The notes under the pieces are model-generated. The model did not search any database, was not told the origin of the DNA, and saw only the letters and a list, made by a program, of their open reading frames with translations. This document shows positions 3,812 to 48,392 of a DNA stretch of 64,000 nucleotides, one piece after another; the first letter of the stretch is position 1; each line of letters starts with the position of its first letter. Where the stretch lies: the NCBI GenBank assembly GCA_004298115.1, contig SCRJ01000140.1, forward strand, positions 1-64,000. Direction: 5' to 3'. Source of the stretch: Acidobacteriota bacterium. Its GTDB lineage: Bacteria; Acidobacteriota; Thermoanaerobaculia; Thermoanaerobaculales; Thermoanaerobaculaceae. The position numbers and the translations under genes are program-made.

Positions 3812-4093
3812 ATGGCAAAGAGGATCAAGTCAGGGCTGAAGCGCCGTCGTCAGAACGAGGTTCGCCGCAACCGCAACCGCGCCGTGCGCACCCGTGTTCG
3901 CAACGCGATCAAGGTGCTGCGGGCCGCCATCACGTCCGGCGACGCCGGTCAGGTCAAGGAGCTGCTGCCGCGCACGGTGTCCGTCATCGAAGGCGGCGTC
4001 CGCAAGGGCGTCTTCCAGCGCAACACCGCGTCGAGGTACAAGTCCCGTTTGACGGTGCAGGCCAACGCGGTGCTGCAGCCCAAGCAGAGCTAG
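3812..4093 (+). CDS. rpsT: 30S ribosomal protein S20
   Basis: MAKRIKSGLKRRRQNEVRRNRNRAVRTRVRNAIK... is S20-like. Confidence 0.93.
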   Translation: MAKRIKSGLKRRRQNEVRRNRNRAVRTRVRNAIKVLRAAITSGDAGQVKELLPRTVSVIEGGVRKGVFQRNTASRYKSRLTVQANAVLQPKQS

Positions 4094-4097
4094 TCCG

Positions 4098-5003
4098 GTG
4101 GCGACGCCCGCGCCGTTCCCCTCCGCCCCGCTCTTCCCCGGGCGGCTGCTCCGGCGCGGCAAGGTGCGCGACGTCTACCAGGCGGACGGCGAGCGGTTGG
4201 TCATCGTCGCGAGCGACCGCATCAGCGCGTTCGATTCCGTGCTCGATCCCGGCGTCCCGGGCAAGGGCATCGTCCTGACGCAGCTTTCGAACTTCTGGTT
4301 CGAGACCCTGGCGGGCGTCGTCCCCAACCACGTCGTGGCGACCCGCCTCGGGGACTTTCCCGCGCCGTTCTCAGGGGAGCCCCTGCTCGAGGGCCGCGCC
4401 TGCCTGGCGCGGGCGGTCCGCATCGCTCCCGTCGAGTGCGTCGTCCGCGGGTTCATCGTCGGGTCGGGGTGGCAGCAGTACCAGGCGCACGGCAGCGTGT
4501 GCGGCGTCCCGCTGCCGGCCGGCCTGCAGCAGGCCGACCGCCTCCCGGCCCCGGTCTTCACACCGTCCACCAAGGCCGAGGTCGGCCACGACCAGAACAT
4601 CCCGTTCGACGAGGTCGTGCGCCTCGTCGGCGGCGGCGTCGCCGAACGGCTCCGGGCCGTCTCGCTCGAGCTGTACCGCAAGGCGGCGGCGCTCGCCGAG
4701 GCGCGGGGCATCATCATCGCCGACACGAAGTTCGAATTCGGGCTCGACGACGAGGGCAAACTGGTCTGGGCCGACGAGGCGCTGACGCCCGATTCGTCGC
4801 GCTTCTGGCCCGCCGACCTCTACCGGCCCGGGAGCAACCCGCCGTCGTTCGACAAGCAGTTCCTGCGCGACTGGCTCGAGGCGTCCGGTTGGGACAAGCA
4901 GCCCCCGGCCCCGACGCTCCCGACCGAGATCGTGGCCCGGACCCGCGCCCTCTACCTCGAAGCCTACCGCCGTCTCACCGGACGCGAGCTCTCGCTCGCG
5001 TGA
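4098..5003 (+). CDS. purC: Phosphoribosylaminoimidazole-succinocarboxamide synthase
   Basis: RGKVRDVYQADGERLVIVASDRISAFDSVL...VECVVRGFIVGSGW; GTG start. Confidence 0.95.
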   Translation: MATPAPFPSAPLFPGRLLRRGKVRDVYQADGERLVIVASDRISAFDSVLDPGVPGKGIVLTQLSNFWFETLAGVVPNHVVATRLGDFPAPFSGEPLLEGRACLARAVRIAPVECVVRGFIVGSGWQQYQAHGSVCGVPLPAGLQQADRLPAPVFTPSTKAEVGHDQNIPFDEVVRLVGGGVAERLRAVSLELYRKAAALAEARGIIIADTKFEFGLDDEGKLVWADEALTPDSSRFWPADLYRPGSNPPSFDKQFLRDWLEASGWDKQPPAPTLPTEIVARTRALYLEAYRRLTGRELSLA

Positions 5004-5085
5004 GACGAACCGGACCGGTCTCCTCTTTACCCGTCTCCTGCGCGTGTTGCGCCCCAAGGCTAGAGTCCTGAGTTCCTGTCGTTGC

Positions 5086-5113
5086 TGACCACGGACCACC
5101 GACCACGGACCAC
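5086..5113 (+). repeat. Heptanucleotide tandem repeat (GGACCAC type), site 1
   Basis: TGACCAC GGACCAC CGACCAC GGACCAC; 21-nt core identical to 49346-49366. Confidence 0.85.
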
Positions 5114-5224
5114 GTCCTGCGCTGGGCAGCCCACGAACCCCGAGTTCTTGCCTTTCGGCGCTTCCGTTTCCGCCGCTTGCTGGATATACTTCCCGGACTC
5201 CGTGCGACGGGAGGTCGCCTGTCC

Positions 5225-32821: not shown

Positions 32822-34300
32822 TCAGGCCGTCACCGGCTCGGCCGGCAGCGTCACCACGAAGCACGTCCCCTGCCCCGGCGCGCTGCGGACCTCGACCCGT
32901 CCACCGTGCTGCTCCGCCGCCGCCTTGACGATCGCGAGCCCGAGCCCGGTTCCTTCGCTGCTGTGGCTGCGCGCGTTGGAGGACCGGTAGAACTCCTCGA
33001 AGACGCGCCCGAGGTCCGCCGCCGGGATGCCGATTCCGGTGTCTTCCACCTCGAGCTCGATCGCCCCGCCGCGCCGTTCCAGGCGGACCTCCACGTTGCC
33101 CCCGCGCGGCGTATAGCGGATCGCGTTGCCGACCAGGTTGCCGGCCAGCTCACGCAGGGCGGCGGCGTCGCCGACGATGGTGGCAGTCTCGCCGGTGATG
33201 CGGACGTTCAACGTGACCCCGGCGCGATCGGCGGCCGGGCGCGCATCCTCGGCCGCCTCGCGGACCATCGCCGCCAGGTCGACCGGCGCCAGCTCGACGG
33301 CCAGCCTTCCCTCGCGTGCACGCGCGAGCGTCAGCAGGTCGGCGGTAACCTGCGCGAGGTCGCCGGTCCGCGCCTCGATCCGCCGGATCAGCCCGACGGC
33401 CGGCCGGGGAAGCTCGCCCGCCACACCGGCGAGCAGCGCGCTCATCGTCGTGCGCATGGTCCCCAAGGGCCCGCGCAGCTCGTGCGCAACCTTGCGCAGG
33501 TACTGCGACTTGGCCCGCTCCGCCTGGCTCACGCGCTCGAGCGCCGCGGCCAGGGTTTCCGCCTTGCGCGAGACCTCGAGCGAGAGCACGACGACCTCGC
33601 CTTCGCGCCGCCGCAGCCGGTCGGCGATCGTGCTGCCGATGTACGCCGAGAGGTAAAGGGTCGTCGCGAAGACGAGCAACTGCGCCGAGACCACGGCCGG
33701 ATCGCGGTACGCCGTCGGTGTCCAGGCGCCGCCGAGCGGCCAGTGACGGACGAGGCCGAGCCCCTCGGAAGTCGCCACCGCGGCGATCAGCGCCACGCTC
33801 CAGCTCGCGTGCACGAACGTCGCCGGGCGCGAGAACAGGATCGAGGCGATGATCACGTGGAAGATGAAGAAGTAGAGGAACGGGTTCTCGACCCCTCCGG
33901 AGAAGTGAAGCAGCACCGCCAGCAGCATCAGGTCGATCGCGACCTGGAGGTTCGCGAAGAGAACGGCCGGTCCGGCCGACCCGACATCGCCCGCCCCGCC
34001 CGGTGACGACGGGAGCAGGAAGCGGACGAGCGGCCGGGTCCACGGCCACTCGCGGTGCGCCTTGCCGGCGTGCAGCCTCCGCAGCCAGAGCCAGTAGAGC
34101 CCGTTGCTGAGCGCCAGCGCGGCGAACGTGAGGTACAGACGCCACATCGGGAGGTGGACCGGGAAGACCCTGCGGGCCACCTCCACGAAGAGCGCCACGC
34201 CCGCCACGGCGAGCCAGCGCAGGCGGATCAGCCACCCCAACCGCTCGCCCAGCTCGGCGGAAACCGGCAACGAGCTCGAGATCGATGCGGTCGCGTCCAT
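32822..34300 (-). CDS. Multi-TM sensor histidine kinase
   Basis: Several N-terminal TM segments; HisKA (LRKVAHELRGPLGTMRTTMSALL); HATPase (LAGNLVGNAIRYTPRGGNVEV, VEDTGIGIPAADLGRVFEEFYRS). Confidence 0.92.
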   Translation of the reverse strand: MDATASISSSLPVSAELGERLGWLIRLRWLAVAGVALFVEVARRVFPVHLPMWRLYLTFAALALSNGLYWLWLRRLHAGKAHREWPWTRPLVRFLLPSSPGGAGDVGSAGPAVLFANLQVAIDLMLLAVLLHFSGGVENPFLYFFIFHVIIASILFSRPATFVHASWSVALIAAVATSEGLGLVRHWPLGGAWTPTAYRDPAVVSAQLLVFATTLYLSAYIGSTIADRLRRREGEVVVLSLEVSRKAETLAAALERVSQAERAKSQYLRKVAHELRGPLGTMRTTMSALLAGVAGELPRPAVGLIRRIEARTGDLAQVTADLLTLARAREGRLAVELAPVDLAAMVREAAEDARPAADRAGVTLNVRITGETATIVGDAAALRELAGNLVGNAIRYTPRGGNVEVRLERRGGAIELEVEDTGIGIPAADLGRVFEEFYRSSNARSHSSEGTGLGLAIVKAAAEQHGGRVEVRSAPGQGTCFVVTLPAEPVTA

Positions 34301-34348: not shown

Positions 34349-34777
34349 TCAGCCCTTGCGGGCCAGTTCGAGCGCTCTGGAGACGACGCGCACCAGATCG
34401 GCCGGTGCCACCGGCTTGTCCAGGAACTCCTGCACCGGAAGGTACTCGCCGGGACGATAGCTGCCGTCGCCGCTCTCGGGGTAGAAGCGGAGATCGGTCT
34501 TCGAGTGGATCGCGGAGACGATGACGATCGGCACCTCGCGGAAGTACGACCCGGGCATCTGCCTCAGCTTCCAGACGAAGTGAAACCCCTCGGTGGCGTC
34601 CGGCATCATCACGTCGAGCAGGATGAGGTCCGGCCTCTCGGCCTCCACCGTGGCGATACCCTCGGCGGGGCCGGCGGCGTCCACGACCCGATAGCCCTCC
34701 TTCTGCAGCAAAAGCCGCATCACGGCGACCAAGTCGCGGTCGTCGTCGACGATCAGGAGCTTGGCCTTCTCGCTCAT
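34349..34777 (-). CDS. Stand-alone receiver-domain response regulator
   Basis: LLIVDDDRDLVAVMRLLLQKEGY...DLILLDVMMPD...FLDKPVAPADLVRVV; no output domain; ATGA overlap with hyfI-like gene. Confidence 0.9.
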   Translation of the reverse strand: MSEKAKLLIVDDDRDLVAVMRLLLQKEGYRVVDAAGPAEGIATVEAERPDLILLDVMMPDATEGFHFVWKLRQMPGSYFREVPIVIVSAIHSKTDLRFYPESGDGSYRPGEYLPVQEFLDKPVAPADLVRVVSRALELARKG

Positions 34778-35286
34778 CCGTGCGCCTCTTTCTGCAGTAT
34801 CCCACCCTGGGCAAGCTGGTCAAGCGACTCCTGCCTGAGGTGCTCCTCGGCCACCTGCTTCGGCACGAGGCCGAGCGCCAGCGCCACCCCGTAGAGGATC
34901 GCCTCGGGCCGGGGCGGGCAGCCGGGCACGTAGAAGTCGACCGGGATCACCTTGTCCGCGCCGCCGAGGACGTTGTAGGAGTCGAACCACGCGCCCCCGC
35001 CGCAGGCGCAGGAGCCGATCGCGAACACCAGCCGCGGGCGCGGCACCGCATCGAGGAGCCGCCCCAGCGCCGGCGCCACCTGTCGGGTGACCGGCCCGCT
35101 CACGACGACCGCGTCGGCGTGGCGCGGGGACCCGACGAGCTTGATGCCGAAGCGCTCCGCGTCGTAGTACGGGGTGAGGACGTTGATCACCTCGATGTCG
35201 CAGCCGTTGCAGGCACCGGCGTTGGCGTGGTAGACCCAGAGGGCCTTGCCGAACGCCTTCTTGCACGCCTTCTCGAGAAGCGCCAT
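34774..35286 (-). CDS. Group 4 [NiFe] hydrogenase small subunit (HycG/HyfI, NuoB-like)
   Basis: NAGACNGCDIEVINVLTPYYDAERFGIKLVGSPRHADAVVVSGPVTRQ...GSCACGGGAW...VPGCPPRPEAIL. Confidence 0.92.
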   Translation of the reverse strand: MALLEKACKKAFGKALWVYHANAGACNGCDIEVINVLTPYYDAERFGIKLVGSPRHADAVVVSGPVTRQVAPALGRLLDAVPRPRLVFAIGSCACGGGAWFDSYNVLGGADKVIPVDFYVPGCPPRPEAILYGVALALGLVPKQVAEEHLRQESLDQLAQGGILQKEAHG

Positions 35287-35288
35287 CC

Positions 35289-36803
35289 TCACCTCCCCAG
35301 CGTGGCCAGCACGTTCGCGGCACGGTCGAGCAACGGGAACGTCAGCCGCGGAAACACCCCGAGAACTACGCATGCAACCGCCAGCGCCACCATCGGCCCC
35401 CACATCGTCGCGGGGACCTCGCGGGCCGCGGCCGCGGTAGCGGGGGCGTGCCCCCAGAACACCGTCCGCGCGGCGCGCAGCAGCACCACCATGGTGAGGA
35501 AGCCTGCGGCGATCGCGATCGCCAACGCCCACCACATGCCGGCCTTCGCCAGCGCGAGGTAGACGGTGAGCTTGCTCAGGAACCCGTTGAACGGCGGCAG
35601 CCCGGCGATCGCGAGCGCGCCGATCACGAAGCACGCGCTGGTGATCGGCATCCGGTCGCGCATCCCGGCCAGCTCGCTGATCCGCCGGGTGCCGGTGGCG
35701 TAGATCAACGCCCCGACGCACATGAACAGCAACGCCTTGATCAGCGCGTGGTTGAGCAGGTGGAACAACCCCCCATAGCAGCCCAGGTAGGTGCCCACCC
35801 CGATGCCGGCCACGACGTAGCCGATCTGGCTGACCGAGGAGTAGGCGAGCAGCCGCTTGAGGTCGTCCTGCGCCAGCGCCATGACGATCCCCAGCACCAT
35901 CGTGAACACCCCGAGCGCGACCACGAACACCGCGAGCGTCGGCCAGCGCGGGTAAAAGATGCTCACCGTCCGCGCCAGCGCGTACACCGCCATCTTGATC
36001 ATCACGCCCGACAGCAACACCGAGATCGGCGTCGGCGCCTCGGCGTGCGCGTCCGGCAGCCAGGGGTGGAACGGCGCGATCCCCGCCTTGGTTCCGAACC
36101 CCACGACCAGGAAAGCGACCGCGATCAGCGCCGTCGCGGGCGGGATCAGGTGCGCGACGCCGCGCACCTCGCTGATCAGCAGCGCCTGGCCGCCGGTGAG
36201 CCGGTTGGTCGCCGCCGCCGCCGCGTAGACAAGGACGCACCCGAAGAGCGCGAAGGTGATGCCGATCGTGAGGAGCATGAGGTACTTGTAGCCAGCCTCC
36301 AGGCCCCGCTTGTCCCAGTGGAAAGCGACCAAAAGGCCCGAGGTCAGCGTGGTCGCTTCGACTGCGACGTAGAGCATCACGATGTTGTTGGTGACGCACC
36401 CCCACACCATCGTCGCGATGAACCAGAGGAAGAGCCCGTAGAAGGTGGGCAGGCGCTGCGCCGCCGCCGCTCCGACCCGCGTCGGCAGGCCCGGCTGCTT
36501 GACGTAGCGCAGCGAGTACAACGCCGTCAGCGTGCCGACGATGCCGATGGCCAGAACCAGCAGGACCGAGAGCCCGTCGACGCGCAGCTCGTTGCCCCAG
36601 CCCGTGAGCACCGCACCGTCCACGACGCGTCGCGCCATCTCGAGGCCCAACAGCGTCACGCCGAGCGGCGCCGCGACGGCCAGGAATTGAGTGAGCCGGG
36701 CACCCAGCCACCGGCCGAAGAAGGCGAGCGCGCCGGCGGCGAGCGGCACCAGGAACGCCCACGCCGGCATGCTCGAAGCGATGGTCGCCGCCTGCTCGCT
36801 CAT
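35289..36803 (-). CDS. Proton-conducting antiporter-like membrane subunit (HyfF/MrpD/NuoN-like)
   Basis: FHPWLPDAHAEAPTPISVLLSGVMIKMAVYALAR, DDLKRLLAYSSVSQIGYVVAGIG. Confidence 0.92.
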   Translation of the reverse strand: MSEQAATIASSMPAWAFLVPLAAGALAFFGRWLGARLTQFLAVAAPLGVTLLGLEMARRVVDGAVLTGWGNELRVDGLSVLLVLAIGIVGTLTALYSLRYVKQPGLPTRVGAAAAQRLPTFYGLFLWFIATMVWGCVTNNIVMLYVAVEATTLTSGLLVAFHWDKRGLEAGYKYLMLLTIGITFALFGCVLVYAAAAATNRLTGGQALLISEVRGVAHLIPPATALIAVAFLVVGFGTKAGIAPFHPWLPDAHAEAPTPISVLLSGVMIKMAVYALARTVSIFYPRWPTLAVFVVALGVFTMVLGIVMALAQDDLKRLLAYSSVSQIGYVVAGIGVGTYLGCYGGLFHLLNHALIKALLFMCVGALIYATGTRRISELAGMRDRMPITSACFVIGALAIAGLPPFNGFLSKLTVYLALAKAGMWWALAIAIAAGFLTMVVLLRAARTVFWGHAPATAAAAREVPATMWGPMVALAVACVVLGVFPRLTFPLLDRAANVLATLGR

Positions 36804-36855: not shown

Positions 36856-37530
36856 CTAGCGCTGCAGCTCGCGCAGAGCGAACGTGTCGGTCGTGCCGAA
36901 CTCCTTGCGCACCCCGGCGATCACGTACAGCAACAGGAAGACCGTCACGACGACCTCGGTGGCGACACCGAACAGCGTGGTCTCGGGCAGCTCGGGCGCC
37001 AGGCTCACCAGGCTCAGGTGCACGCCGTTCTCGAGCAGGCACAGGCCGATCACCGTCTTGGTCGCGTCGCGGCGCGTCAGCACGCAGTAAAGGCCGAGCG
37101 CGAAGACCGTCGAGGTCACCGCCAGGTTGGTGCGGAACACCCCTCCCTGTGCCAGCGTCGTCGGGGCGAACAGCGCGACGTGACCGTGGGTGAAGCGGTA
37201 GAAGCCGGTCATCAGCAGCGCCGCCACCACCACCGAGGGGCCGAAGCCGATCAGCGGCTTGATCTCGCGGTCCTCGCCATGGCCGATGAAGCGGAACAGG
37301 AACCACGGCGTCAGCACCGCCTTGGTGATCAGCGCCACCGCCGCCCACCAGTAGAGCGACGGGTTGACCGCCGCGAAGCTGGCGACCAGCCCGACGATCA
37401 GCAGCGCCTGCGCCGAGTACGCCATCGCCGCGAAGCGCAGGCGCCGCACCTCGACCGCGACGACCGAGGTGATCACCACCACCATCGAGAGCGTCTGGAT
37501 CAGCTCGCCGTTGAGCCCCGCGGTGCTCAC
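36856..37530 (-). CDS. Hydrogenase-4 component E (HyfE)-like membrane subunit
   Basis: TM-rich protein with NuoK-like C-terminal part (VFALGLYCVLTRRDATKTVIGLCLLENGVHLSLV); position in operon. Confidence 0.85.
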   Translation of the reverse strand: MSTAGLNGELIQTLSMVVVITSVVAVEVRRLRFAAMAYSAQALLIVGLVASFAAVNPSLYWWAAVALITKAVLTPWFLFRFIGHGEDREIKPLIGFGPSVVVAALLMTGFYRFTHGHVALFAPTTLAQGGVFRTNLAVTSTVFALGLYCVLTRRDATKTVIGLCLLENGVHLSLVSLAPELPETTLFGVATEVVVTVFLLLYVIAGVRKEFGTTDTFALRELQR

Positions 37531-37976
37531 GATCTGCCTCCGCTACCGGTGCGAAACCCCGTCCTGTCCATGCGGTCGAGCGGCGTCGGCGGCACGTAGC
37601 AGCGGCCGCAGCGCTGGCACGGGCCCATGAACACCTCGAGCCGCATCACCATGTCGTCGCCGCGGTCGGTCGCGGTCTCGAACTGCTGGCTCATCGTGAT
37701 CGCCTGCTCCGGGCACACCTCCTCGCAGCGGCCGCAGTACGTGCACCGCCGCCACTGGAACTCGAGCACGCGGAGGAGCTGGCCCGCATCGCGCACCTGG
37801 ATGACGCCGGCCGGACACACGTTGGCGCAGCCGCCGCAGCCGAAGCAGCGGTCGGGATCCAGCGTGATCTTGCCGCGGAAGCCCGGAGCCGGATCGTGGG
37901 GTGCGAACGGATACGGCAGCGTCACCCGCCCCGCCTTGAAGCAGATCAGCGCCTCCCGCAGCTTGGCTGTCAGCAC
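37527..37976 (-). CDS. 4Fe-4S ferredoxin-like hydrogenase subunit (HycF/HyfH)
   Basis: CFGCGGCANVCPAG, CTYCGRCEEVCPEQ; additional C-terminal CQRCGRC. Confidence 0.88.
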   Translation of the reverse strand: MLTAKLREALICFKAGRVTLPYPFAPHDPAPGFRGKITLDPDRCFGCGGCANVCPAGVIQVRDAGQLLRVLEFQWRRCTYCGRCEEVCPEQAITMSQQFETATDRGDDMVMRLEVFMGPCQRCGRCYVPPTPLDRMDRTGFRTGSGGRS

Positions 37977-37987
37977 GATTTCGCCTC

Positions 37988-38905
37988 CTACATCCCGATC
38001 ACCGCGAAGGCGAGGGCCGCCAGCGCAGAGAGCGCCACCCGCATGTAGTAGCCCATCGCCTGCTCGATCCGCAACCGCGGGTTGACCGCGTCGACCACCC
38101 CCACGAGGACGAGCACGGCCAGCGCCTTGACCAGCGTCAGCACGGCGTCGAGCGGCACGACGCCGAGGTGCGGCCACGGCACGAACACCTGCACGAGCAG
38201 CAGAGCGAAGATCAACTGCTTGGCCCACATCGCCCAGCGGAAGACGGCCAACCGCGGGCCGCTCTGCTCGATCAGCGGTCCGCCCATGATCTCCTGGTCC
38301 GCCTCGGGGATGTCGAACGGCAGCTTGCCGGCCTGCGCCTGCAGCGCGAGGAACAGGGCGACGGCGGCGATCGCCATGCTGATGGTCGGGCCGTGCTCGG
38401 CGTTCCACGCGAGGATGCCGCCGACCGAAAGCGTCCCCGCCTTGACCGCGCCGACCACCAGCGCCACCGCCAGGACCGGCTCGACCGAGAGCAGCATCAT
38501 CATCTCGCGCGAGCCGCCGACCGCCGCGTACGGACTGCCGCTGGCGAAGGCGGTGAGAATCAGAGCCACGGCGCTGGTCGCCGCCACGTAGATCAGCACG
38601 ATGAGGTCCCCGGCGAACCCCAACGGCGGCGCGGCGCCGAGCGGCACCAGCGTCGCCAGCAGCAGCACCGAGCCCAACGTGAGGGCCGGTGCGAGCGCGT
38701 ACGGCAACCCGCCGGTGGTGCGCAGGTCCTCCTTGCCGAGGAGCTTGAGCAGGTCGAGGTAGGGCTGGGTGAGCGGCGGCCCCTGACGCGAGTGGACGAT
38801 CGCCTTGAGCTTGCGCATGACACCCTCGACCAGCGGCGAAAGCAGCAGCGCCACCGCCACGTTGAGCAGGGCGAGTGCGAGCGCGAGCAGCGGTGCGGTC
38901 GTCAT
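37988..38905 (-). CDS. NuoH-like membrane subunit (HycD/HyfC)
   Basis: MRKLKAIVHSRQGPPLTQPYLDLLKLLGKEDLRTTGG...PFDIPEADQEIMGGPLIEQSGPRLAVFRW. Confidence 0.93.
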   Translation of the reverse strand: MTTAPLLALALALLNVAVALLLSPLVEGVMRKLKAIVHSRQGPPLTQPYLDLLKLLGKEDLRTTGGLPYALAPALTLGSVLLLATLVPLGAAPPLGFAGDLIVLIYVAATSAVALILTAFASGSPYAAVGGSREMMMLLSVEPVLAVALVVGAVKAGTLSVGGILAWNAEHGPTISMAIAAVALFLALQAQAGKLPFDIPEADQEIMGGPLIEQSGPRLAVFRWAMWAKQLIFALLLVQVFVPWPHLGVVPLDAVLTLVKALAVLVLVGVVDAVNPRLRIEQAMGYYMRVALSALAALAFAVIGM

Positions 38906-40602
38906 CGCCGTCCTCCCCGGAGCGTCAGTTCGCGCGACATCGCGAGCAGCTCCTGGCGTGAGTAGACCCGGCGCGAGTGCGTGCTCACGTCGATCGCCTC
39001 GACCCGCTCGGTGCAGGAGAAGCAGGGGTCCAGGCTGCCGAGCGTGATCGGCACGTCGGCGATCGCGGCGTGGTCGATCATCGCCGGCATCGCCTGCAGG
39101 TTCGGGTAGGTCGGCGCGCGCACCCGCCAGCGGTACGGGCGGTTGTCGCCGCCGGTCATGACGAAGTGCACGGCCTCGCCGCGCGGCGCCTCGACCACCG
39201 AGATGCCGATCCGGTCGCGCGGGATCTCGTCCTTGACCTCCGCCAGCACCTCGCCGGCGGGGAGCCTGGCCAGGCCCTCGCGCACCTGGCGGATCGAGTC
39301 GAGCAGCTCCTCGACGCGGACCAGCACGCGCGCCCAGGTGTCGCCCGCCTGCTGCGTGCACAGTCGCGGCGGCACCTCATCGTAGGCGGCGTACGGGTGG
39401 TCGAGGCGCGCGTCGATCGGCACGCCGGAGCCGCGCGCCGGCGGCCCCACCACGCACACCTGTCGCGCCCAATCGCCCGTCAACACCCCGACGTTCTTGG
39501 TCCGCGCCAGCAGCGTGGTGTCGCCGACGATCGCGTCGCGCACCGCCACCGACTCGCGCTCGACCTCGTCGACCACCTTGAGGACCTTCGCGACGACAGT
39601 CGCCGGCAGGTCCCGGCGCAGGCCGCCGATCGTGTTCATGCCGTATGTCTTGCGGTTGCCGCTGATCTCCTCCGCGAGCCACATCACCGGCTCGCGCATC
39701 CGCCAGGTCTGCATCAGCACCGTGTCGAAGCCGAGGATGTGGCCCGCGATCCCCAGCCACAGCAGGTGCGAGTGGACGCGCTCGAGCTCGAGCATGATCG
39801 AACGGATGTAGCGGGCGCGCCGCGGCACCTCGATGCCGGCGGCCTTCTCCACCGCCTGGCAATAGGCGGTCGAGTGGATGAACCCACAGATGCCGCAGAT
39901 GCGCTCGGCAAGGTACGGGATCTCGTTGTAGGTGAGCGTGCTCTCGCCGAGCTTTTCGATGCCGCGGTGGTTGTAGAAGCCGCGATAGTCGCAGCCGACG
40001 ACCGTTTCGCCCTCGACGAACAGCCGCCAGTACGAGGGCTCCTCGAGCACTGGGAAGAAGGGCCCGATGGGCAGCACGCTCGCGCCCTCAGGCGGCTGTT
40101 TCGGCACCGGCGCCACGCCCTCGGCCGCGGGCGGGCGGTAGTCGTAGGGGAAGTCGCGGCGCAGCGGGAAGAGGCCTTCGGGCCAGTCGTCGGCGAGCAA
40201 CAGGCGGCGCGGGTCGGGGTGCCCGTCCGGCGTCACCCCGACCGCGTCGCGGCACTCCCGCTCCGCCCAGTTGGCGCCCGGGACCAGCGCCGCGATCGAG
40301 TCGACGTGCGGGTCATCGGGACTCACCGCGCACTCGAGCACTACGAACAGGTGCTCGCCGTCGAGCGAGAAGAGGTAGAGGACGCGATAGTCCGCCGACA
40401 GCGGTCGGGCGTCGATCCCCACCGTGATCAGGAAGCGCGCCCGCAGCCGCAGCAGCTCCTCGGTCGCGCTGCGGAGTTCCTCGGGGGCTACCACGAGACG
40501 GAGGGTGTCGGGTGGCCCCTGTGACGCGGCCCGCAGGCCCGCGCCGATCTTCCGGGCCACCGCCTCGTTCACCTGCGCCGCGACGCCCAAAACGCTCGCC
40601 AT
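38902..40602 (-). CDS. Group 4 [NiFe] hydrogenase large subunit with NuoC-like N-terminus (HycE/HyfG)
   Basis: L1 RICGICGFIHS and L2 DPCFSCTERVE both intact; NuoC-like GANWAERECRDAVGV. Confidence 0.94.
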   Translation of the reverse strand: MASVLGVAAQVNEAVARKIGAGLRAASQGPPDTLRLVVAPEELRSATEELLRLRARFLITVGIDARPLSADYRVLYLFSLDGEHLFVVLECAVSPDDPHVDSIAALVPGANWAERECRDAVGVTPDGHPDPRRLLLADDWPEGLFPLRRDFPYDYRPPAAEGVAPVPKQPPEGASVLPIGPFFPVLEEPSYWRLFVEGETVVGCDYRGFYNHRGIEKLGESTLTYNEIPYLAERICGICGFIHSTAYCQAVEKAAGIEVPRRARYIRSIMLELERVHSHLLWLGIAGHILGFDTVLMQTWRMREPVMWLAEEISGNRKTYGMNTIGGLRRDLPATVVAKVLKVVDEVERESVAVRDAIVGDTTLLARTKNVGVLTGDWARQVCVVGPPARGSGVPIDARLDHPYAAYDEVPPRLCTQQAGDTWARVLVRVEELLDSIRQVREGLARLPAGEVLAEVKDEIPRDRIGISVVEAPRGEAVHFVMTGGDNRPYRWRVRAPTYPNLQAMPAMIDHAAIADVPITLGSLDPCFSCTERVEAIDVSTHSRRVYSRQELLAMSRELTLRGGRR

Positions 40603-40612
40603 CGTCCGCTCC

Positions 40613-42619
40613 TCACCCGACCAGCCCGAGCACGATCGCCACCACGGCGACCGCGCCGACGACGATCCAAAGGAGGTACACCTGCGGCACGCCGACGTGG
40701 CTGCGGCTCACCGCGCCCGCCGCCCGCTCGACCAGCCGGGCGGCCGGCCGGTAGGCCCACGCGTCGACGTCGAAGGCACGCCGCAACCCGCCGGGGAACG
40801 CCGGCACCCGCCAGCGGATGCGCGGGTAGATCCCTGCGAAGGCGTGTTTGAACGGCAGGTAGAAGCTCGACGCCGCGTAGCGCACGGTGGCCGCGGCGTG
40901 CTCCTCGCCCCCGGTCCACACCGCGACCTCGCGCCGCCCGGCGCCGCCGGCGCGCTGCAGGCCGTAGGCGACGAACGCGAGCACGACCATCCCGCCCGCC
41001 ACCACCAGCGGCGACCACAGCGCGAGCGCGGCCCCGCCGCCCGTGACCGCCAGGCCCCACGGTCCGCCGAGAAGCTCGGAGGCGCTCGGCACCGCGATCG
41101 GGACGCTGGCCGCCGCCGCATCGCGGATGAAACGCAGCGGCCAGAACGGAAGCACGCCGAGCAGCACGCAGAGCGCGGCCAGGACGACCTGCGCCGCCGC
41201 CATGGTGGCCGGCACCTCGCTCACCCGGCGCTCCGGGTTCGGCTGCCCGAGGAAGACGGCTCCGAGAACCTTCAGGAACGACGCCAGGGTCGCGAGCGAG
41301 ATGAACATCGCCACCAGGCCGAGGATCAGGAAGAGCGGCTGCGCCATCCCCGCCAGCAGACAGGCGGCGACGATCAGCCACTTGCTGGCGAACCCGTTGA
41401 GGGGCGGCACGCCGGCGATCGCCAGCGACGCCACCGTTGACGACCCCGCCGTCAGCGGCATGGCGGCGGCCAGCCCGCCGAGCCGGTTCATGTCGCGCTC
41501 GCCGGTGCGGTACAGCACGGCGCCGGCGCCGAGGAACAGGCACGCCTTGAAGCAGGCGTGGTTGGCGGCGTGGAACAGCGCGCCCACGATCGCGAGCGCG
41601 CCCAGGGTCGGCGCCGTCCGCAAGCAGGCGATGCCGACCCCGAGACCGAGGCAGATGTAGCCGATCTGGCCGATGGTGTGGAACGCCATCAGCCGCTTGC
41701 TGTCGGTCTGGCGCAACGCCGTCAGCGTGCCGACGAACAGGGATGCCGTACCCGCCAGCGCGATCGCGATCCCCCACCCGACCGCCGCGGCCGAGGCCGG
41801 CAGGAGCGCGCCGAAGAAACGCACCAGTCCGTAGATCCCCAGCTTGACCAGGGCGCCCGAGAGCGCCGCGCTCATTCCCGACGGCGCCACCGGATGGGCG
41901 TCGGGCAGCCAGTCGCCCATCGGCAGCACCCCGGCCTTGGTGGCGAAGCCGATGAAGAGGAGGCCGAGCACGGTGTGCGCCAGCAACGGCCGCGTGGCGA
42001 GCAGCTGCGCGAGCGCCGCCAGCAGATCGCCGAAGTGGAACGAGCCGCACTGGCGCCAGAGCACGAGCGCCGCCACGACCATGCACAGCGTCGCCGCGTG
42101 GGTGATCACGAAGTACTTCCACCCGGCGCGTTGGCTGGCGGCGTTCTCCCGCTCGAAGGTGACCAGGAAGAACGAGGTCAGCGTCATGAGCTCCCAGCAC
42201 ACCAGGAAGAAGAGGAAGTCGGAGACGACCAGCACGCCGACGATCGCCGCGAAGAACACCAGCAGGATCGGATAGAACTTCGCCAGCGTGTTGCCCGCGA
42301 AGTGCGTCATGTAGTCGACCGAGTAGAGCGTGGCGACCACGGCGATCGTCGCGACGATCGCCAGGAAGAACGCCGACAGCGGGTCGACCACGACCGACAG
42401 CCGCGCCCCCAGGTCCGGCAGCGCGAGCACGGTCGCCTCGCCCTCGGCCCGCGATGAGAACGCCCGCACCACGACGACCCAGATGGCCGCTGCCGCCGCC
42501 GCCACGAACGCCGTGCTCACCCACCCAGCGAGCCTGGCCCGGCGCGCCAGCGCCAGGCTCGCGGCGGCGCCCGCCAGCAGGACCGCGATCGCGACGGCGA
42601 GCAGTTCGGGGGTGGTCAT
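40613..42619 (-). CDS. Proton-conducting antiporter-like membrane subunit (HyfB/NuoL-like)
   Basis: LGLLFIGFATKAGVLPMGDWLPDAHPVAPSGMSAALSGALVKLGIYGLVRF. Confidence 0.92.
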   Translation of the reverse strand: MTTPELLAVAIAVLLAGAAASLALARRARLAGWVSTAFVAAAAAAIWVVVVRAFSSRAEGEATVLALPDLGARLSVVVDPLSAFFLAIVATIAVVATLYSVDYMTHFAGNTLAKFYPILLVFFAAIVGVLVVSDFLFFLVCWELMTLTSFFLVTFERENAASQRAGWKYFVITHAATLCMVVAALVLWRQCGSFHFGDLLAALAQLLATRPLLAHTVLGLLFIGFATKAGVLPMGDWLPDAHPVAPSGMSAALSGALVKLGIYGLVRFFGALLPASAAAVGWGIAIALAGTASLFVGTLTALRQTDSKRLMAFHTIGQIGYICLGLGVGIACLRTAPTLGALAIVGALFHAANHACFKACLFLGAGAVLYRTGERDMNRLGGLAAAMPLTAGSSTVASLAIAGVPPLNGFASKWLIVAACLLAGMAQPLFLILGLVAMFISLATLASFLKVLGAVFLGQPNPERRVSEVPATMAAAQVVLAALCVLLGVLPFWPLRFIRDAAAASVPIAVPSASELLGGPWGLAVTGGGAALALWSPLVVAGGMVVLAFVAYGLQRAGGAGRREVAVWTGGEEHAAATVRYAASSFYLPFKHAFAGIYPRIRWRVPAFPGGLRRAFDVDAWAYRPAARLVERAAGAVSRSHVGVPQVYLLWIVVGAVAVVAIVLGLVG

Positions 42620-42623
42620 GGCC

Positions 42624-44087
42624 TCACCTTCCGATCCACTGCACGAGCGGGATGCCGAACGCCGGAGCGACCAGGCAGCCGAGCATCAGCACGACGAGCG
42701 CGGCCGACATCGCCGGCGGCGGGTCGGAGTTGACGCACGCCACCGGCGTCGTCTCGCCGAGGAACACCTTCTGCGCCACGTGCAGCAGCCAGGCGAACGA
42801 GATCAGGCTCTCGAAGAGCACCAGCGTCACCACGACCGGCCCGATCGCGCCGGCGAGCCGCATCGCGCCCGCGACGATCATGAACTTGCTCCAGAAGCTG
42901 CCGAACGGGGGCACGCCGGCGACCGCCAGCACGCCGACGAAGAACGCCGTGGCCGTGAGCGGCATCGTGCGCGCCACACCGGCGAGGGCGGAGATGCTGC
43001 GCGAGCCGGTGACGTACGCCACCGCCCCGACGCAGAGGAACAGCGCCGCCTTGCCGAAACCGTGGCAGAGGATGTGCAGCGCGGCGCCGCGCAGGGCGGT
43101 AACCGATCCGAGCGCCCCGAGCGCGACGCCGAGCATCACGTACCCGAGGTTGGCGATCGTCGAGTACGCGAGCAGGCGCTTGAGGTCGTCCTGGATGAAG
43201 TAGTAGGAAAGCGCGACGAATATCGTCACGAGCGCCATCGCCCCGGCGAGCATCGCCACCGCGGGCGGCACCTCCGGGTTCGCGACGACGACGCGCGCCA
43301 TCAGGTAGACGCCCGCCTTGACCATGGCCGCGGCGTGCAGGTACGCGGAGATCGGCGTCGGCGCTGCCATCGCGTCGGGCAGCCAGGTGTGGAACGGCAC
43401 CTGGGCGGCTTTCGCCCAGGCGGCGATCAGCAGCATCACGAGCACCGCGGCGCGCCAGTCGCCGGGGAGCTGCCCCAGCGCCGCGAACTCGAACGAACCG
43501 GTCTTGACGAACAGCACGCAGATGGCGCCGAGGAAGAACAGACCGCCGGCGCCGGTCATCACCAGCGCCTTGAACCCGGCGGCGAGGCTCCTCGGGGTTC
43601 CGTAGTAGGAGATCAGCGCCCACGAGCAAACCGTCGTCATCTCCCAGAAGATGAACAGCTGGAGGAAGTTCGGCGAGATCGCCACGCCCACCATGCTGGC
43701 CAGGAAGAGGAGCAGCCAGAAGTAGTAGCGGCCCTGCCCCGCAGGGCCCTCCGGGTGTTCCCGATTGGCGGCGGAGAGGTACCGGGTCGAGTACAACACG
43801 GTGAGGAAGCCGATCACCGTCACCACCAGCAGCAGGATGCAACCGAGAGGGTCAAGCAGGACGCCGGGCACCGGTGCGGACGCAGTCCCGGCGAGGAACG
43901 GCAAGTCGCCGAGCGTGACCCGATAGCTCACACCGTACCCGGCGAGACAGCACCACACCGCGAGAACCGCCACCACTGCCGCCGCCGTTGCCGCAACCCA
44001 GCGGGCGAACGCTCCCTTCACCACCGCTGCGACCGCCGCCGCCAGCGCCGGCAGGAGGACCATCAGCACGAGCATCCAGCTCAGCAT
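42624..44087 (-). CDS. Proton-conducting antiporter-like membrane subunit (MrpD/NuoM-like)
   Basis: AWAKAAQVPFHTWLPDAMAAPTPISAYLHAAAMVKAGVYLMARV. Confidence 0.92.
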   Translation of the reverse strand: MLSWMLVLMVLLPALAAAVAAVVKGAFARWVAATAAAVVAVLAVWCCLAGYGVSYRVTLGDLPFLAGTASAPVPGVLLDPLGCILLLVVTVIGFLTVLYSTRYLSAANREHPEGPAGQGRYYFWLLLFLASMVGVAISPNFLQLFIFWEMTTVCSWALISYYGTPRSLAAGFKALVMTGAGGLFFLGAICVLFVKTGSFEFAALGQLPGDWRAAVLVMLLIAAWAKAAQVPFHTWLPDAMAAPTPISAYLHAAAMVKAGVYLMARVVVANPEVPPAVAMLAGAMALVTIFVALSYYFIQDDLKRLLAYSTIANLGYVMLGVALGALGSVTALRGAALHILCHGFGKAALFLCVGAVAYVTGSRSISALAGVARTMPLTATAFFVGVLAVAGVPPFGSFWSKFMIVAGAMRLAGAIGPVVVTLVLFESLISFAWLLHVAQKVFLGETTPVACVNSDPPPAMSAALVVLMLGCLVAPAFGIPLVQWIGR

Positions 44088-44599
44088 GACGCCGACCTCT
44101 CCGCCCCCGAAGGGCCACAGGGCGCGACGCGCCCCGACGGCAGCACGTCGATCAGCAGCTCGGCCAGGCTCGCCGCGCTCGCGGCGACCTCTGGGCTCGG
44201 CGGCATCGCGAGCTCGGTGTGCCCGGGTTGCACCGCCAGCACCGCGACGCGCGCGCCGGTCTCCCGCCGCACGATCTCCATCAGCATGGACAGCGGCATG
44301 CGATGGGTCGACGCCATGTACGACGACAGCTCGCGGGCGGAAAGCAGCGCCGCGGTGCCCGGCGCCTCGCCGAGGTCGATCGCGTCGAAGAACAGCACGG
44401 CGTCCGGCGAGGCCGTGATGGCGGCGAGGACGAAATTCTCCGGCACGTCCTCGGCGTCGATGACGAGCGCGCGCACCCGTCCGGCGAGGAGGCGGGCCAG
44501 CAGCGAGCCGAAGGCGTCGTCGCCGCGCACCGGGTTCCCGATGCCGACGATCGTGACGGCGCCAGAGAGAAGCTCCGCGAGCTCCGCGCGCAGGCTCAC
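44081..44599 (-). CDS. Hydrogenase maturation protease (HycI/HyaD family)
   Basis: VTIVGIGNPVRGDDAFGSLLARLL...AVLFFDAIDLGEAPGTA...STHRMPLSML; GTGA overlap with upstream gene. Confidence 0.9.
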   Translation of the reverse strand: MSLRAELAELLSGAVTIVGIGNPVRGDDAFGSLLARLLAGRVRALVIDAEDVPENFVLAAITASPDAVLFFDAIDLGEAPGTAALLSARELSSYMASTHRMPLSMLMEIVRRETGARVAVLAVQPGHTELAMPPSPEVAASAASLAELLIDVLPSGRVAPCGPSGAERSASC

Positions 44600-45417
44600 T
44601 CCGTCATCTCCCGGATCTGCCGGTAGGTGAAGACCGGACCGTCGCGGCAGACGTAGCGGTGGCCGATGCAGCAGTGGTTGCACTTGCCGACCCCGCACTG
44701 CATCATCCGCTCCAGCGTCGAGATCACCGAGTCGGGGCTGAACCCCCGCATCAGCAGCTCCTGGACGACGAACTTGATCATGATCGGCGGCCCGCAGACG
44801 TACGCCAGCGTGGTGGCCGGCTTGAGCTCGGTCCTGTCGAAGAGGACCGGCACCATGCCGACGTTGCCGGTCCAGCCGGTTTCGCCGCGATCGACGGTGA
44901 CGTGGATCTCGACGTCCCCCCGCCTCGCCCACTCCTCGAGCTCGTCCTTGTAGACCAGGTCGGTGGGCGTGCGGGCGCCGTAGAGGATCGTCACCTTACC
45001 GAAGCGGTCGCGCTCGTCGAGCACGTTCCAGATCAGCCCGCGCAGCGGCGGCAGGCCGATGCCGCCGCCGATGAACAGCAGGTCCTTCGCCGTGGCCGCG
45101 GCCACGTCGAAACCGTTGCCGCACGGCCCTCGCACGCCGACCTCGTCGCCGGCCGCCAGGGTGTGCATCGCGTCCGTCAGCACGCCCGTGCGGCGCACCG
45201 TGGTCTGGATGCACTCCGTCCGTGTCGGGCTCGAGGCGAAGCAGAACGGGGCCTCGCCGACGCCGAACACCGACAGCTCCATGAACTGCCCCGGTGAGAA
45301 CGTGAAGTCGCGCGGCTCGCCGCCCTGGCGGAGAACGAGGTCGAACGTCTTTGTGTCCGGCGTCTCGTCGCGGACCGCGGCGATCCGCGCCACCCGCGGC
45401 AGGAACAGGTTATCCAT
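44596..45417 (-). CDS. FAD/NAD(P)-binding, [2Fe-2S] electron-transfer subunit (HydG/AsrB-like)
   Basis: FSPGQFMELSVFGVGEAPFCFASSP, DLLFIGGGIGLPPLRGLI, CGPPIMIKFV, C-terminal CGVGKCNHCCIGHRYVCRDGPVF. Confidence 0.9.
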   Translation of the reverse strand: MDNLFLPRVARIAAVRDETPDTKTFDLVLRQGGEPRDFTFSPGQFMELSVFGVGEAPFCFASSPTRTECIQTTVRRTGVLTDAMHTLAAGDEVGVRGPCGNGFDVAAATAKDLLFIGGGIGLPPLRGLIWNVLDERDRFGKVTILYGARTPTDLVYKDELEEWARRGDVEIHVTVDRGETGWTGNVGMVPVLFDRTELKPATTLAYVCGPPIMIKFVVQELLMRGFSPDSVISTLERMMQCGVGKCNHCCIGHRYVCRDGPVFTYRQIREMTE

Positions 45418-46462
45418 GCCACTCTCCCTTGCGGATCGCGGCCACGACGGCCGGCATGTCGCTGGTCCCCAGGCAGACCTTCACGCAGCGCCCGCAGCCG
45501 ACGCAGCCCACCGCGCCGTCCCGGCGGAAGTACTGGGCGCTCACCTTGTGGAAGAAGCGCCGCTTCACCCGCTCCCGGTGCGCCTCGCGGGGGTTGTGGC
45601 CGGACGCCTCGAGCGTGAAGGCGCGGAACTGGCAGGAGTCCCAGGTGCGGCAGCGGACCCAGCGCCCGTCGCGCGCCTGGTCCTTCACCGAGAAGCAGTA
45701 GCAGGTGGGGCAGACGAAGTTGCAGGCGCCGCACTCGAGGCACGTGTCCGCGATCTCGTCCCACAGCTCCGCGCTCACCCGGCCGACCGACACGCGCCGC
45801 ATCGCCGAGGCGAAGTGGCACGTTTCCGGGCCGAACGCCCGCTTCGCCGCCTCCTCCAGCTCGTGCCGCAGCGCCACCTCGTCGGCCCGCCCCGTCCGGA
45901 ACAGGTCGGCCGACGGCTCGAGGAGACGGCCGCCCTTCTCGCTGCCCACCTCGGCGAGGAAACGGTCGCCGAGATCGGTGAGCTGGACGTCGAACGAATC
46001 GGCCAGGAACGGCCCGGCGTCGCAGCAGATGCAGAAGCCGAACGCACAGGGCGCGACGCACGCCACGCTGACCGAGGTCACCGCGGCGGCGCGCCGAAGG
46101 TACGCCGCGTCGGCGAGGTCGTACTCGTGCACCCGCGTGAGGAACTCGATCCCCTTGACGTCGCAACTGCGCAACCCGAAGAGCACCCGCGGCGTCTCGT
46201 CGTAGACCGGCTCGACCACGAAGCCGCCGGGACCCCTCCCGATCGAGACGAGAGGGTCCGTCTGCGGCAGCACCGCCTGCTTCGGCGGGAGCAGCGGGAT
46301 GTCCCCGCCCCACTGCACCTCGAGGGGAGAGGAGATCCTGCGTAAGATGATGTCGCCGGCCCGGGCAGACGTCGGCGCGAGGACCTCGGCCCTCTCCATG
46401 AGGCGGCCGATCCACTCGCGCATCCTCTCCTTGCCGATCGTGCGAGCCGCGTTTGAGTGCAT
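45410..46462 (-). CDS. 4Fe-4S dicluster electron-transfer subunit (HydB/AsrA-like)
   Basis: CLECGACNFVCPTCYCFSVKDQ, CVGCGRCVKVCLGTSDMP. Confidence 0.9.
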   Translation of the reverse strand: MHSNAARTIGKERMREWIGRLMERAEVLAPTSARAGDIILRRISSPLEVQWGGDIPLLPPKQAVLPQTDPLVSIGRGPGGFVVEPVYDETPRVLFGLRSCDVKGIEFLTRVHEYDLADAAYLRRAAAVTSVSVACVAPCAFGFCICCDAGPFLADSFDVQLTDLGDRFLAEVGSEKGGRLLEPSADLFRTGRADEVALRHELEEAAKRAFGPETCHFASAMRRVSVGRVSAELWDEIADTCLECGACNFVCPTCYCFSVKDQARDGRWVRCRTWDSCQFRAFTLEASGHNPREAHRERVKRRFFHKVSAQYFRRDGAVGCVGCGRCVKVCLGTSDMPAVVAAIRKGEWHG

Positions 46463-46481: not shown

Positions 46482-48392
46482 TCAGGCCCGTTCGACGGCC
46501 ACGCTGGCCACGCTGCGCCCGCCCATCGCCGGCGCGAGCCCGTCGCGGAGCGCGAACGGCACCACGACGACGCCCGCCGCCAGATCGGCGCGCATCAGCG
46601 CCGGCGCCACCGCCTCCCCGCCCGCCGACTTGAGCCGCACCGGCCAGCCCTGGCGCACTCCGAGCCGCTCCATCGCCTCCTTGGACAGCTCCACGAACCC
46701 ACCCGGGAACAGCTTGCGCTGCGCGACGGATTCGCGGCACAGGGTCGGGGAGTAGCGCACGAGCGGATCACGTCCCCAGTCGAACACGCCGTTCCACAAC
46801 GCCACGAACGGCGCAGGTTCGACCGGCTCGCACGGCGTCAGCGGACCCAGCGAACGGCGCCGGAGGCCATTGCGCTCTCCTTTCGGCGCCACCCCGACCT
46901 GGTCGAGCTCCCGCCAGCGCGGGGCGGCGTCGGGAGGCACCGCCCGGGCGATCTCCCGCCGCACCCCTTCGGCGCTTTCGTACTCCGCGGCCGGCCCGAG
47001 GCGCCCGAGCATCGCCCCGAGCACGGCCCACCCGGGCCGCGCCATCCCGGGCGGGCCGACGGCCGCGCGGACCCGCCGCAAGCGCCCGTCCAGCCCGGTG
47101 ACGGTGCCGTCGTTCTCGGCGAAGCTGGCGATCGGCAGCACCACGGTGGCGAGCTCGAGCGCCCCCGTCGCGAACGCGTCCAGCAGGACCACGCACTCCA
47201 TCCGCCCGAGCGCCTCGCGCGCGAGCGCTCCGGCCGGCAACACCACGCTCGGGTCCTCCGCCACGATCACCGCGCCCCGCGCCGCGGACAGCATCGCGGT
47301 CGCGTCCAGCCCCGTCTCACGTGCGGGCGGCACGCCCCAGACGCCCTCGAGACGGCTGGCGGCCTTCTCGTCGGACAACGGCGCGAACCCCGGCAGGAAG
47401 GCCGACGACGCGCCGACCTCGCAGGCGCCCCGCAGGTTGCCGCGCGCCGGCAGCATCAGCAAGGGGCTCCCGTCCCGATCCAGGTGGCCGGTCGCCGCCG
47501 CCAACGTGGCAACGTCGCCGGCGAGCCGCCGCAGGTCGGTCGCGTCCCCCACCAGCGGGGCGACCACGATGCCGGCCCGCTGCGCCTGTGCGTACCACCC
47601 CGCGGCGCGCGCCACCGCCTTGCTCACCTCGACCCCGGCAAGGCTGCGGCGCAGCTCGTCGAAGGTTTCGCCGGCGGCGACGATCGTCGCGGTGTCGAGC
47701 CGCCCGGTGGCGAGCGCCGCCGCCGCAAGCTCGAACGTCACCGCGCGCTCGCGCCCGGGTGGGGCGGCGATCGCCAACGTCGCAAGCCTCGTCATCTGTG
47801 AGGCGACGGCGCCGATCGTCACCAGCCGGCACCCCGCCTTCCGGGCGCGGACGATCGCGCCCGCGACCTGCGGGTGGGTCACGGCCACGTCGCCCTCGAC
47901 CAGGACGATCACGTCGCACCCCTCGAGGTCGGCCACCCCGCCGCTCCCCGCATGCCGCTCGGTGACGTCGTGGAGGCCGTCGAGCAGCGGCTGATAGGCC
48001 GGCGACAGGCACGTGCCGACGTGCGGGGTCTGCAGCGCTCCTCGCGCCATCCGCACCGCGAGGTAGTTCTCCTCGTTGGTGGCGCGCGCGGATCCCAGCA
48101 CGCCGATCGTCCGTCCGGCGCGCCGCATTGCGGCGAGGCTCCCGGCGGCCGCGTCGAGCGCCGTCTCCCAGGAGACGGGACGCATCCGTCCGTCGTGGCG
48201 CAGCAACGGCTCGGTGAGGCGTTCGCCCCACGCCGGCGCTTCGTGGCTCGCCCAACCGCGGGCGCACAGCCTCCCCCGCGACACCGGGTCGCTCGCGCTG
48301 GGGATGACGCCTTCCGTCCTTCCCTCTCTGGCAAGCAAGTAGAAACCGCAACCGCAGGGGCAAAACGGGCAGGTGGTGAGGACAGGGTCCAC
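46482..48392 (-). CDS. Molybdopterin oxidoreductase/FdhF-NuoG-like subunit with non-canonical active site
   Basis: N-terminal [4Fe-4S] CPFCPCGCGFYL...GRLCARGW; FdhF-like GSARATNEENYLAVRMARGALQTPHVGTCLSPAYQPLLDGL. GTG start after GGGAGGGGAAGG; ORF open to 48452. Confidence 0.85.
   Translation of the reverse strand: MDPVLTTCPFCPCGCGFYLLAREGRTEGVIPSASDPVSRGRLCARGWASHEAPAWGERLTEPLLRHDGRMRPVSWETALDAAAGSLAAMRRAGRTIGVLGSARATNEENYLAVRMARGALQTPHVGTCLSPAYQPLLDGLHDVTERHAGSGGVADLEGCDVIVLVEGDVAVTHPQVAGAIVRARKAGCRLVTIGAVASQMTRLATLAIAAPPGRERAVTFELAAAALATGRLDTATIVAAGETFDELRRSLAGVEVSKAVARAAGWYAQAQRAGIVVAPLVGDATDLRRLAGDVATLAAATGHLDRDGSPLLMLPARGNLRGACEVGASSAFLPGFAPLSDEKAASRLEGVWGVPPARETGLDATAMLSAARGAVIVAEDPSVVLPAGALAREALGRMECVVLLDAFATGALELATVVLPIASFAENDGTVTGLDGRLRRVRAAVGPPGMARPGWAVLGAMLGRLGPAAEYESAEGVRREIARAVPPDAAPRWRELDQVGVAPKGERNGLRRRSLGPLTPCEPVEPAPFVALWNGVFDWGRDPLVRYSPTLCRESVAQRKLFPGGFVELSKEAMERLGVRQGWPVRLKSAGGEAVAPALMRADLAAGVVVVPFALRDGLAPAMGGRSVASVAVERA

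Follow-up and report, generated by a model that had tools for sequence, protein, structure and literature searches.

A formate dehydrogenase (FDH)-like protein without its active site probably serves as a working scaffold and relay subunit of an energy-converting group 4 [NiFe]-hydrogenase of the formate hydrogenlyase (FHL) type, as judged from sequence comparisons. The protein, termed pseudo-FDH in the following, is FdhF/FdhA-like, has the molybdopterin fold and one [4Fe-4S] motif, and is encoded at positions 46482–48392 on the minus strand of the window, i.e., the whole stretch of 64,000 nucleotides that was analysed. Profiles and alignments reveal that the Sec/Cys, His and Arg residues of FDHs have been lost from it, while its gene heads a run of genes for a diaphorase and a hydrogenase.

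Family assignment and predicted fold

The reading frame is open from a GTG start codon at 48392 to position 46482 and encodes 636 amino acids. It is recognized by the Pfam models Molybdopterin (104 bits), Molybdop_Fe4S4 (45 bits) and Molydop_binding (28 bits), and the best-scoring curated family is Fdh-alpha (TIGR01591) with 270 bits, below the cut-off of 666. The NuoG model (TIGR01973) gives 109 bits at a cut-off of 470, and neither the N-terminal 2Fe-2S nor the NADH-G Fe-S domain of NuoG was found with domain profiles. As the protein is nearer to FDHs than to NuoG by these scores, we consider it an analogue and not an orthologue of NuoG; descent from a NuoG orthologue is not favoured by the profile scores, although clade A, to which the protein belongs, is placed beside NuoG-like proteins in the tree described below.

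The hallmarks of FDHs, an N-terminal [4Fe-4S] motif and the fold of molybdopterin-dependent oxidoreductases, are present. In an AlphaFold2 model calculated from a 14-member alignment (mean pLDDT 84, pTM 0.89), the FDH fold is preserved, with TM-scores of 0.85–0.88 to FDHs (by query length), ahead of 0.69–0.71 to NuoG. The model is weakest in the N-terminal cluster region (pLDDT 57–68, residues 1–60).

Loss of the catalytic residues

The first-pass annotation had aligned the protein to E. coli FdhF by eye and had read Ala in place of Sec/Cys and Tyr in place of the neighboring His. This alignment is correct, because phmmer searches against the PDB pair the stretch PHVGTCLSPAYQPLLDGL gaplessly both with NNVDHCARLCHAPTVAGL of FdhF from the HDCR complex (7qv7) and with VDCCARV(U140)(H141)GPSVAGL of E. 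coli FdhF (1aa6). Sec140 and His141 of FdhF thus correspond to Ala132 and Tyr133, which are encoded on the coding strand by GCC (47997–47999) and TAT within positions 47994–47999 (minus strand). Selenocysteine can be dismissed at this position, since the codon is GCC and there are zero in-frame stop codons in the reading frame. The N-terminal cluster motif, reported as kept, is indeed complete: Cys8, Cys11, Cys15 and Cys43 are invariant in the 14-member alignment and among the pseudo-FDH relatives compared, as are Arg45, Gly46, Trp47 and His50 beside them (14 sequences).

The alignment also reveals replacements that had not been noted before. Arg333 of FdhF corresponds to Pro315 and Lys44 to Arg45, while Arg110 is retained as Arg103. 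We take Lys44, Arg110, His141 and Arg333 of FdhF to be catalytic or cofactor-contacting residues. For a broader comparison, 90 reference columns were defined that are conserved across 19 FDH relatives with Cys/Sec-His, E. coli FdhF and HDCR FdhF. The equivalents lost in the seven proteins of the window type (clade A, see below) include K44 (Arg), U140, H141, N159, N176 (Asp), D202, R204, T300, R333 (Pro), Q335 and D478, several of which presumably contact the guanine dinucleotides of the cofactor; those kept comprise the four cluster cysteines, R61, S108, E115, R125, H181-P182 and E450. A structural alignment with another Cys, Sec, Ser or Asp as Mo ligand, together with the conserved His/Arg of FDHs, had been named as the observation that would contradict the first-pass reading; at the sequence level, none of these four residues is conserved as a substitute at the ligand position in the alignment of the seven window-type proteins. 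Formate oxidation by the known mechanism, which had been doubted from the outset, is unlikely: All seven window-type orthologues are devoid of Sec/Cys, His and Arg333, and the 12 proteins of clade B are devoid of Cys/Sec and Arg333, so that the loss of this chemistry is well supported.

Relatives and selection

We compared 19 relatives, seven of the window type (clade A) and 12 of a second clade (clade B). The hosts of the window type are the organism of the window itself, three members of the same genus, one of the same family, one of the same order, and a member of the Gemmatimonadota (chromosome CP070815). It had been proposed to look for the same substitution in orthologues, and indeed Cys/Sec is missing from the ligand column in all 19 relatives, as are the equivalents of Arg333 and Lys44; the His has gone in 7/7 window-type proteins. 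Their ligand position is occupied by Ala, Thr, Thr, Thr, Gly, Glu and Thr, and their His position by Tyr, Tyr, Tyr, Tyr, Leu, Phe and Tyr. The clade B proteins stem from other families of the Acidobacteriota, mostly carry Gly at the ligand position, lack Arg333, retain the His in several cases, and keep, among other residues lost in clade A, the R204 and R460 equivalents. In some of them (L037, L039, L040, L042, L043, and L046), an SDxG motif is present, with its Asp two residues ahead of the lost ligand. An assembly error is excluded, since an 84% identical orthologue from the independent metagenome-assembled genome palsa_272 and five further orthologues likewise lack Cys/Sec at the ligand column. 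With respect to this nearest orthologue, dN/dS is 0.32, and this purifying selection speaks for a protein in use and against a decaying pseudogene.

Judged from the alignments, the loss of the active site appears to be ancestral and common to the pseudo-FDH relatives. Scores with the Fdh-alpha profile are graded (565 bits for L068, 352–407 for clade B and 260–302 for the window type, at the curated cut-off of 666), in a pattern that resembles the step-by-step decay of an FDH. In a tree of 58 sequences, clades A and B are each fully supported, and clade A lies beside NuoG-like proteins of other gene clusters with support values of 90/99 (midpoint root, long branches). Joining both clades in one group is not rejected by the AU test (p = 0.378), and given this value and the long-branched tree, one loss of the active site and several losses are both compatible with the data.

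Other ligand-less members of the family were also encountered. A longer FDH-type protein (L012, G043:C119:2243–4150, minus strand) reads NNVDCCVRVGHAPSEVAL, with Gly for Cys/Sec and the His kept, and hydrogenase genes are absent nearby. NuoG-like proteins in which Gly occupies the Sec/Cys position and Ala or Val the His position are encoded at G000:C185 (L080:11408–12853, minus strand) and at L078:5328–12271. In L078, one of them lies next to a GltD-like/CCG protein and a NuoE/F fusion, a setting resembling transhydrogenase modules of the Stn type.

The hydrogenase operon

The pseudo-FDH gene is the first in a run of 12 genes on the minus strand. It is followed by a gene for a HydB/ShyB/AsrA-like iron–sulfur protein with two C-x2-C-x2-C-x3-C motifs (45410–46462; nearest solved relative Pyrococcus sulfhydrogenase I beta, 9nez_B) and one for a HydG/ShyC/AsrB-like FAD/NAD(P)-binding flavoprotein with a [2Fe-2S] domain (44596–45417; nearest solved relative sulfhydrogenase I gamma, 9nez_C). 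For both, the top families and solved relatives are of the sulfhydrogenase type and Fe-S and NAD/FAD domains are present, with scores below the equivalog cut-offs. The next genes encode, according to profiles, a maturation protease of the HycI type (44081–44566), antiporter-type membrane subunits similar to HyfD (42624–44087; 496 bits with the model for hydrogenase 4 subunit D, over the cut-off) and HyfB (40613–42619), a HyfG/HycE-like [NiFe]-hydrogenase large subunit in which the 30k and 49k parts are fused (38902–40602; nearest solved relative E. coli FHL subunit 5, 7z0s_E), and a HyfC/NuoH-like membrane subunit (37988–38905). Both Ni-Fe ligand motifs are present in the large subunit (ERICGICGFIH and DPCFSC), which is extended C-terminally beyond the second. 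The run is completed by a HyfH/NuoI-like protein with two [4Fe-4S] motifs (37527–37982, start codon approximate), a HyfE/NuoK-like membrane subunit (36856–37530), a HyfF-like antiporter-type membrane subunit (35289–36803) and a HyfI/NuoB-like small subunit identified by the motifs CNGCD, GSC and GCPPRP (34774–35286). The features of a group 4 hydrogenase of the Hyf/FHL type are therefore present: HyfB/C/D/E/F/H/I, HycI, and both Ni-Fe motifs. The latter also rule out an Ehr-type complex, i.e., a hydrogenase-related complex without NiFe. A response regulator gene (34349–34777, minus strand) overlaps the end of hyfI by 4 bp and is followed by a histidine kinase gene (32822–34300, minus strand).

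The unit of pseudo-FDH, hydB and hydG occurs in 16 of 16 loci examined, from Acidobacteriota and one member of the Gemmatimonadota, and within the DNA retrieved the large subunit of an FHL-type group 4 [NiFe]-hydrogenase is encoded in 14 of them. Of the two loci without it, L067 consists of a contig of 4.8 kb, which terminates past the HycI gene; in L074 (positions 3900–5515, genome G295) the run stops inside hyfB, which is joined in frame to a histidine kinase-like fragment, a break due to rearrangement or misassembly. Both Ni-Fe motifs are intact in all 14 large subunits, and the cluster cysteines are kept in HydB, in HyfH and, where covered, in HyfI. HypD is encoded in 13 of 15 carrier genomes. 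Neighboring hydB, hydG or hydrogenase genes were found for none of nine intact (Cys/Sec-His) FDH relatives and none of three other family members from the same phylum.

In genomes G006 and G010, a second hydB–hydG pair (L063:1925–5590 and L064:1208–4444) and a distant match to a hydrogenase large subunit, possibly from a group 3b sulfhydrogenase, adjoin the pseudo-FDH operon; such a pair is a plausible source of the operon's own diaphorase genes. In L065, L066, L069–L072, L075, and L076, too, the hydrogenase genes are followed by a response regulator match, and together with the histidine kinase this suggests a common regulation of these loci.

FdhD and molybdenum cofactor genes in the carrier genomes

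FdhD matures FDHs and is needed for their sulfuration. A profile search detected FdhD in none of the 15 carrier genomes and in 15 of 17 control genomes from the same phylum with intact Cys/Sec-His FDHs. The protein is not a strict marker, since the controls G163 and G196 are without a match despite their intact FDHs, and the carrier G282 is without one though it bears TGA-containing FDH-type genes.

MoaC, the C-terminal domain of MoaA, and MoeA are jointly unmatched in the same seven of 15 carriers, one of which is the organism of the window (genome 96% complete), and MoaA, MoaC and MoeA are jointly present in the other eight. Many near-complete relatives are likewise without MoaC. Nevertheless, Mo-hydroxylases of the xanthine dehydrogenase type (PF02738) are encoded by all of the seven Moa/Moe-negative carriers but one, G303, which has none. 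The window's genome (G000) thus encodes four such Mo-hydroxylases, yet gives zero matches for the MoaA C-terminal domain, MoaC, MoeA and MoaE, and the same conflict is apparent in G003, G004, G006, G033, and G192. MoaE (PF02391) is uninformative, as it was missed even in MoaC-bearing genomes. Because of the Mo-hydroxylases, the gaps are only a hint that these organisms are devoid of molybdenum cofactor. The window's genome also encodes a 966-amino-acid molybdopterin-family protein (G000:C166, L081:2434 onward) that starts like a twin-arginine lipoprotein, has additional Fe-S motifs, and resembles ActB of alternative complex III by eye.

Proposed role and alternative explanations

As the active site is lost in all relatives and the gene is part of a hydrogenase/diaphorase operon, pseudo-FDH is probably a structural or electron-passing link. 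A structural or electron-wire subunit analogous to NuoG had been suggested in the first-pass annotation, and this suggestion is supported by the persistence of the [4Fe-4S] motif, by the predicted fold and by an operon that combines a diaphorase with a complex-I-like hydrogenase. We infer the assembly of the complex, the absence of a Mo cofactor from it, and the passage of electrons through pseudo-FDH with their path and direction as follows. Pseudo-FDH would no longer handle formate, would probably carry no molybdenum cofactor, and would dock an NAD(P)H diaphorase, made up of HydG (FAD, [2Fe-2S]) and HydB (two [4Fe-4S]), onto HyfH, HyfI and HyfG. Electrons would move in either direction from NAD(P)H via HydG, HydB, the [4Fe-4S] cluster of pseudo-FDH, HyfH and HyfI to the NiFe site and H2/H+, coupled to ion translocation via HyfB/D/F/C/E. 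The assembly would thus be a membrane-bound NAD(P)H:H2 oxidoreductase, the use of NAD(P) by HydG being predicted: In one direction, H2 uptake would build up an ion gradient and reduce NAD(P)+; in the other, an ion gradient would drive H2 evolution. The more far-reaching picture, that of an FHL whose FDH was emptied of Mo and turned, independently of NuoG, into a wire from a diaphorase to an ion-pumping [NiFe]-hydrogenase for membrane-energised NAD(P)H:H2 interconversion, is one that we put forward tentatively and with somewhat less than even confidence.

The main rival to a relay subunit is an enzyme that has remained Mo- or W-dependent and has changed its substrate. Pseudo-FDH would then still bind a Mo- or W-bis-MGD cofactor with non-protein (oxo, hydroxo or sulfido) ligands to the metal and act on some unknown substrate in a different type of reaction. 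The preserved fold and Arg110 equivalent would suit such an enzyme, as would the R204 and R460 equivalents and the frequent His of clade B, the presence of MoaA, MoaC and MoeA in eight of 15 carriers, and the Mo-hydroxylases in the window's own genome. We nevertheless regard it as rather unlikely, given that many columns invariant in intact FDHs have disappeared from all window-type proteins, that the ligand position is free to vary (Ala/Thr/Gly/Glu) in a manner unlike that of an active site, and that Moa/Moe proteins are unmatched in seven of 15 carriers. That formate is still oxidized by a non-canonical, cysteine-free mechanism, the complex being a formate hydrogenlyase after all, is highly improbable: The hydrogenase core is nearest to E. 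coli FHL and Fdh-alpha is the top family profile, but clade A has other residues in place of Sec/Cys, His and Arg333, FdhD is unmatched in 15 of 15 carriers, and the electron partner supplied by the operon is a diaphorase of the NAD(P)H type.

Pseudo-FDH might also be a purely structural spacer, with electrons flowing directly from HydB to HyfH while the [4Fe-4S] cluster of pseudo-FDH lies off the path or has a stabilizing effect only. Faster evolution of pseudo-FDH than of its partners would be in line with such a role (45–50% identity to the less closely related window-type orthologues vs. 75–79% for HydG and 68–74% for the large subunit), but the invariance of the four cluster cysteines and of Arg45, Gly46, Trp47 and His50 in 14 sequences with a variable active site suggests that the cluster itself is under selection, and a mere spacer is therefore unlikely in our view. 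A decaying pseudogene or an assembly artefact, for which the lost residues alone could be cited, has a negligible probability in the face of full-length genes in at least seven genomes from two phyla, a dN/dS of 0.32, and conserved cysteines and operon position.

Comparison with known systems

A literature search retrieved no published report of the dead active site of this pseudo-FDH and no precedent closer than a gene cluster for a group 4 [NiFe]-hydrogenase that was described in 2019 as enigmatic in Saganbacteria RX5A and has relatives in Zixibacteria and Omnitrophica (PMC6349859). As described there, the cluster combines hydrogenase and Mrp-type subunits with asrA and asrB, an oxidoreductase module was proposed, and the molybdopterin-family protein is an FDH by HMMs and not by phylogeny. 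Going by this description, the parts are of the same type as here (asrA/asrB corresponding to HydB/HydG), whereas the phyla differ, cooF is mentioned for RX5A, and a loss of catalytic residues is not remarked upon in the main-text passages considered.

With E. coli FHL (FdhF-HycBCDEFG; 7z0s/7z0t), the complex encoded here would share an FdhF-like subunit, the HycI protease, and a large subunit whose best match is HycE (421 bits); it differs in that the FdhF active site is lost, HydB–HydG is added and extra antiporter-type subunits are present as in Hyf. NuoG of complex I likewise combines the FDH fold with [4Fe-4S], lacks an FDH active site, and is situated between a diaphorase and the complex-I-like arm, and residue loss and operon layout of pseudo-FDH would fit such a subunit; unlike NuoG, pseudo-FDH lacks the N-terminal 2Fe-2S/NADH-G domains, and its complex keeps a NiFe site. 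An inactive FdhF-like domain in an electron-transferring subunit is also known from StnC of the Stn transhydrogenase (PMC10482914; 8oh5), but StnC belongs to a soluble bifurcating complex, and this domain is fused to others that are GltD-like or correspond to the N-terminal part of NuoG. Sulfhydrogenase I of Pyrococcus (HydBGDA; 9nez), finally, contains the closest solved relatives of the diaphorase pair, its hydrogenase being a soluble group 3b enzyme without an FDH-like subunit.

Implications

Since the pseudo-FDHs match formate dehydrogenase models, formate oxidation or FHL activity may be ascribed to carriers in error, and annotators should be aware that proteins retrieved with such models include dead representatives. 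Dead FDH folds are already known as parts of electron paths (NuoG, StnC); in the present case, such a fold is part of a complex that retains the NiFe site, and its neighbor is another kind of diaphorase. Provided that it functions in the proposed way, this complex would link NAD(P)H and H2 to an ion gradient, unlike FHL or soluble sulfhydrogenase, and would offer a testable parallel to the gain of NuoG by complex I. An assembly that looks like complex I and is still able to form or consume H2 would then match, in its composition and in living organisms, the transition from hydrogenase to complex I that has been postulated.
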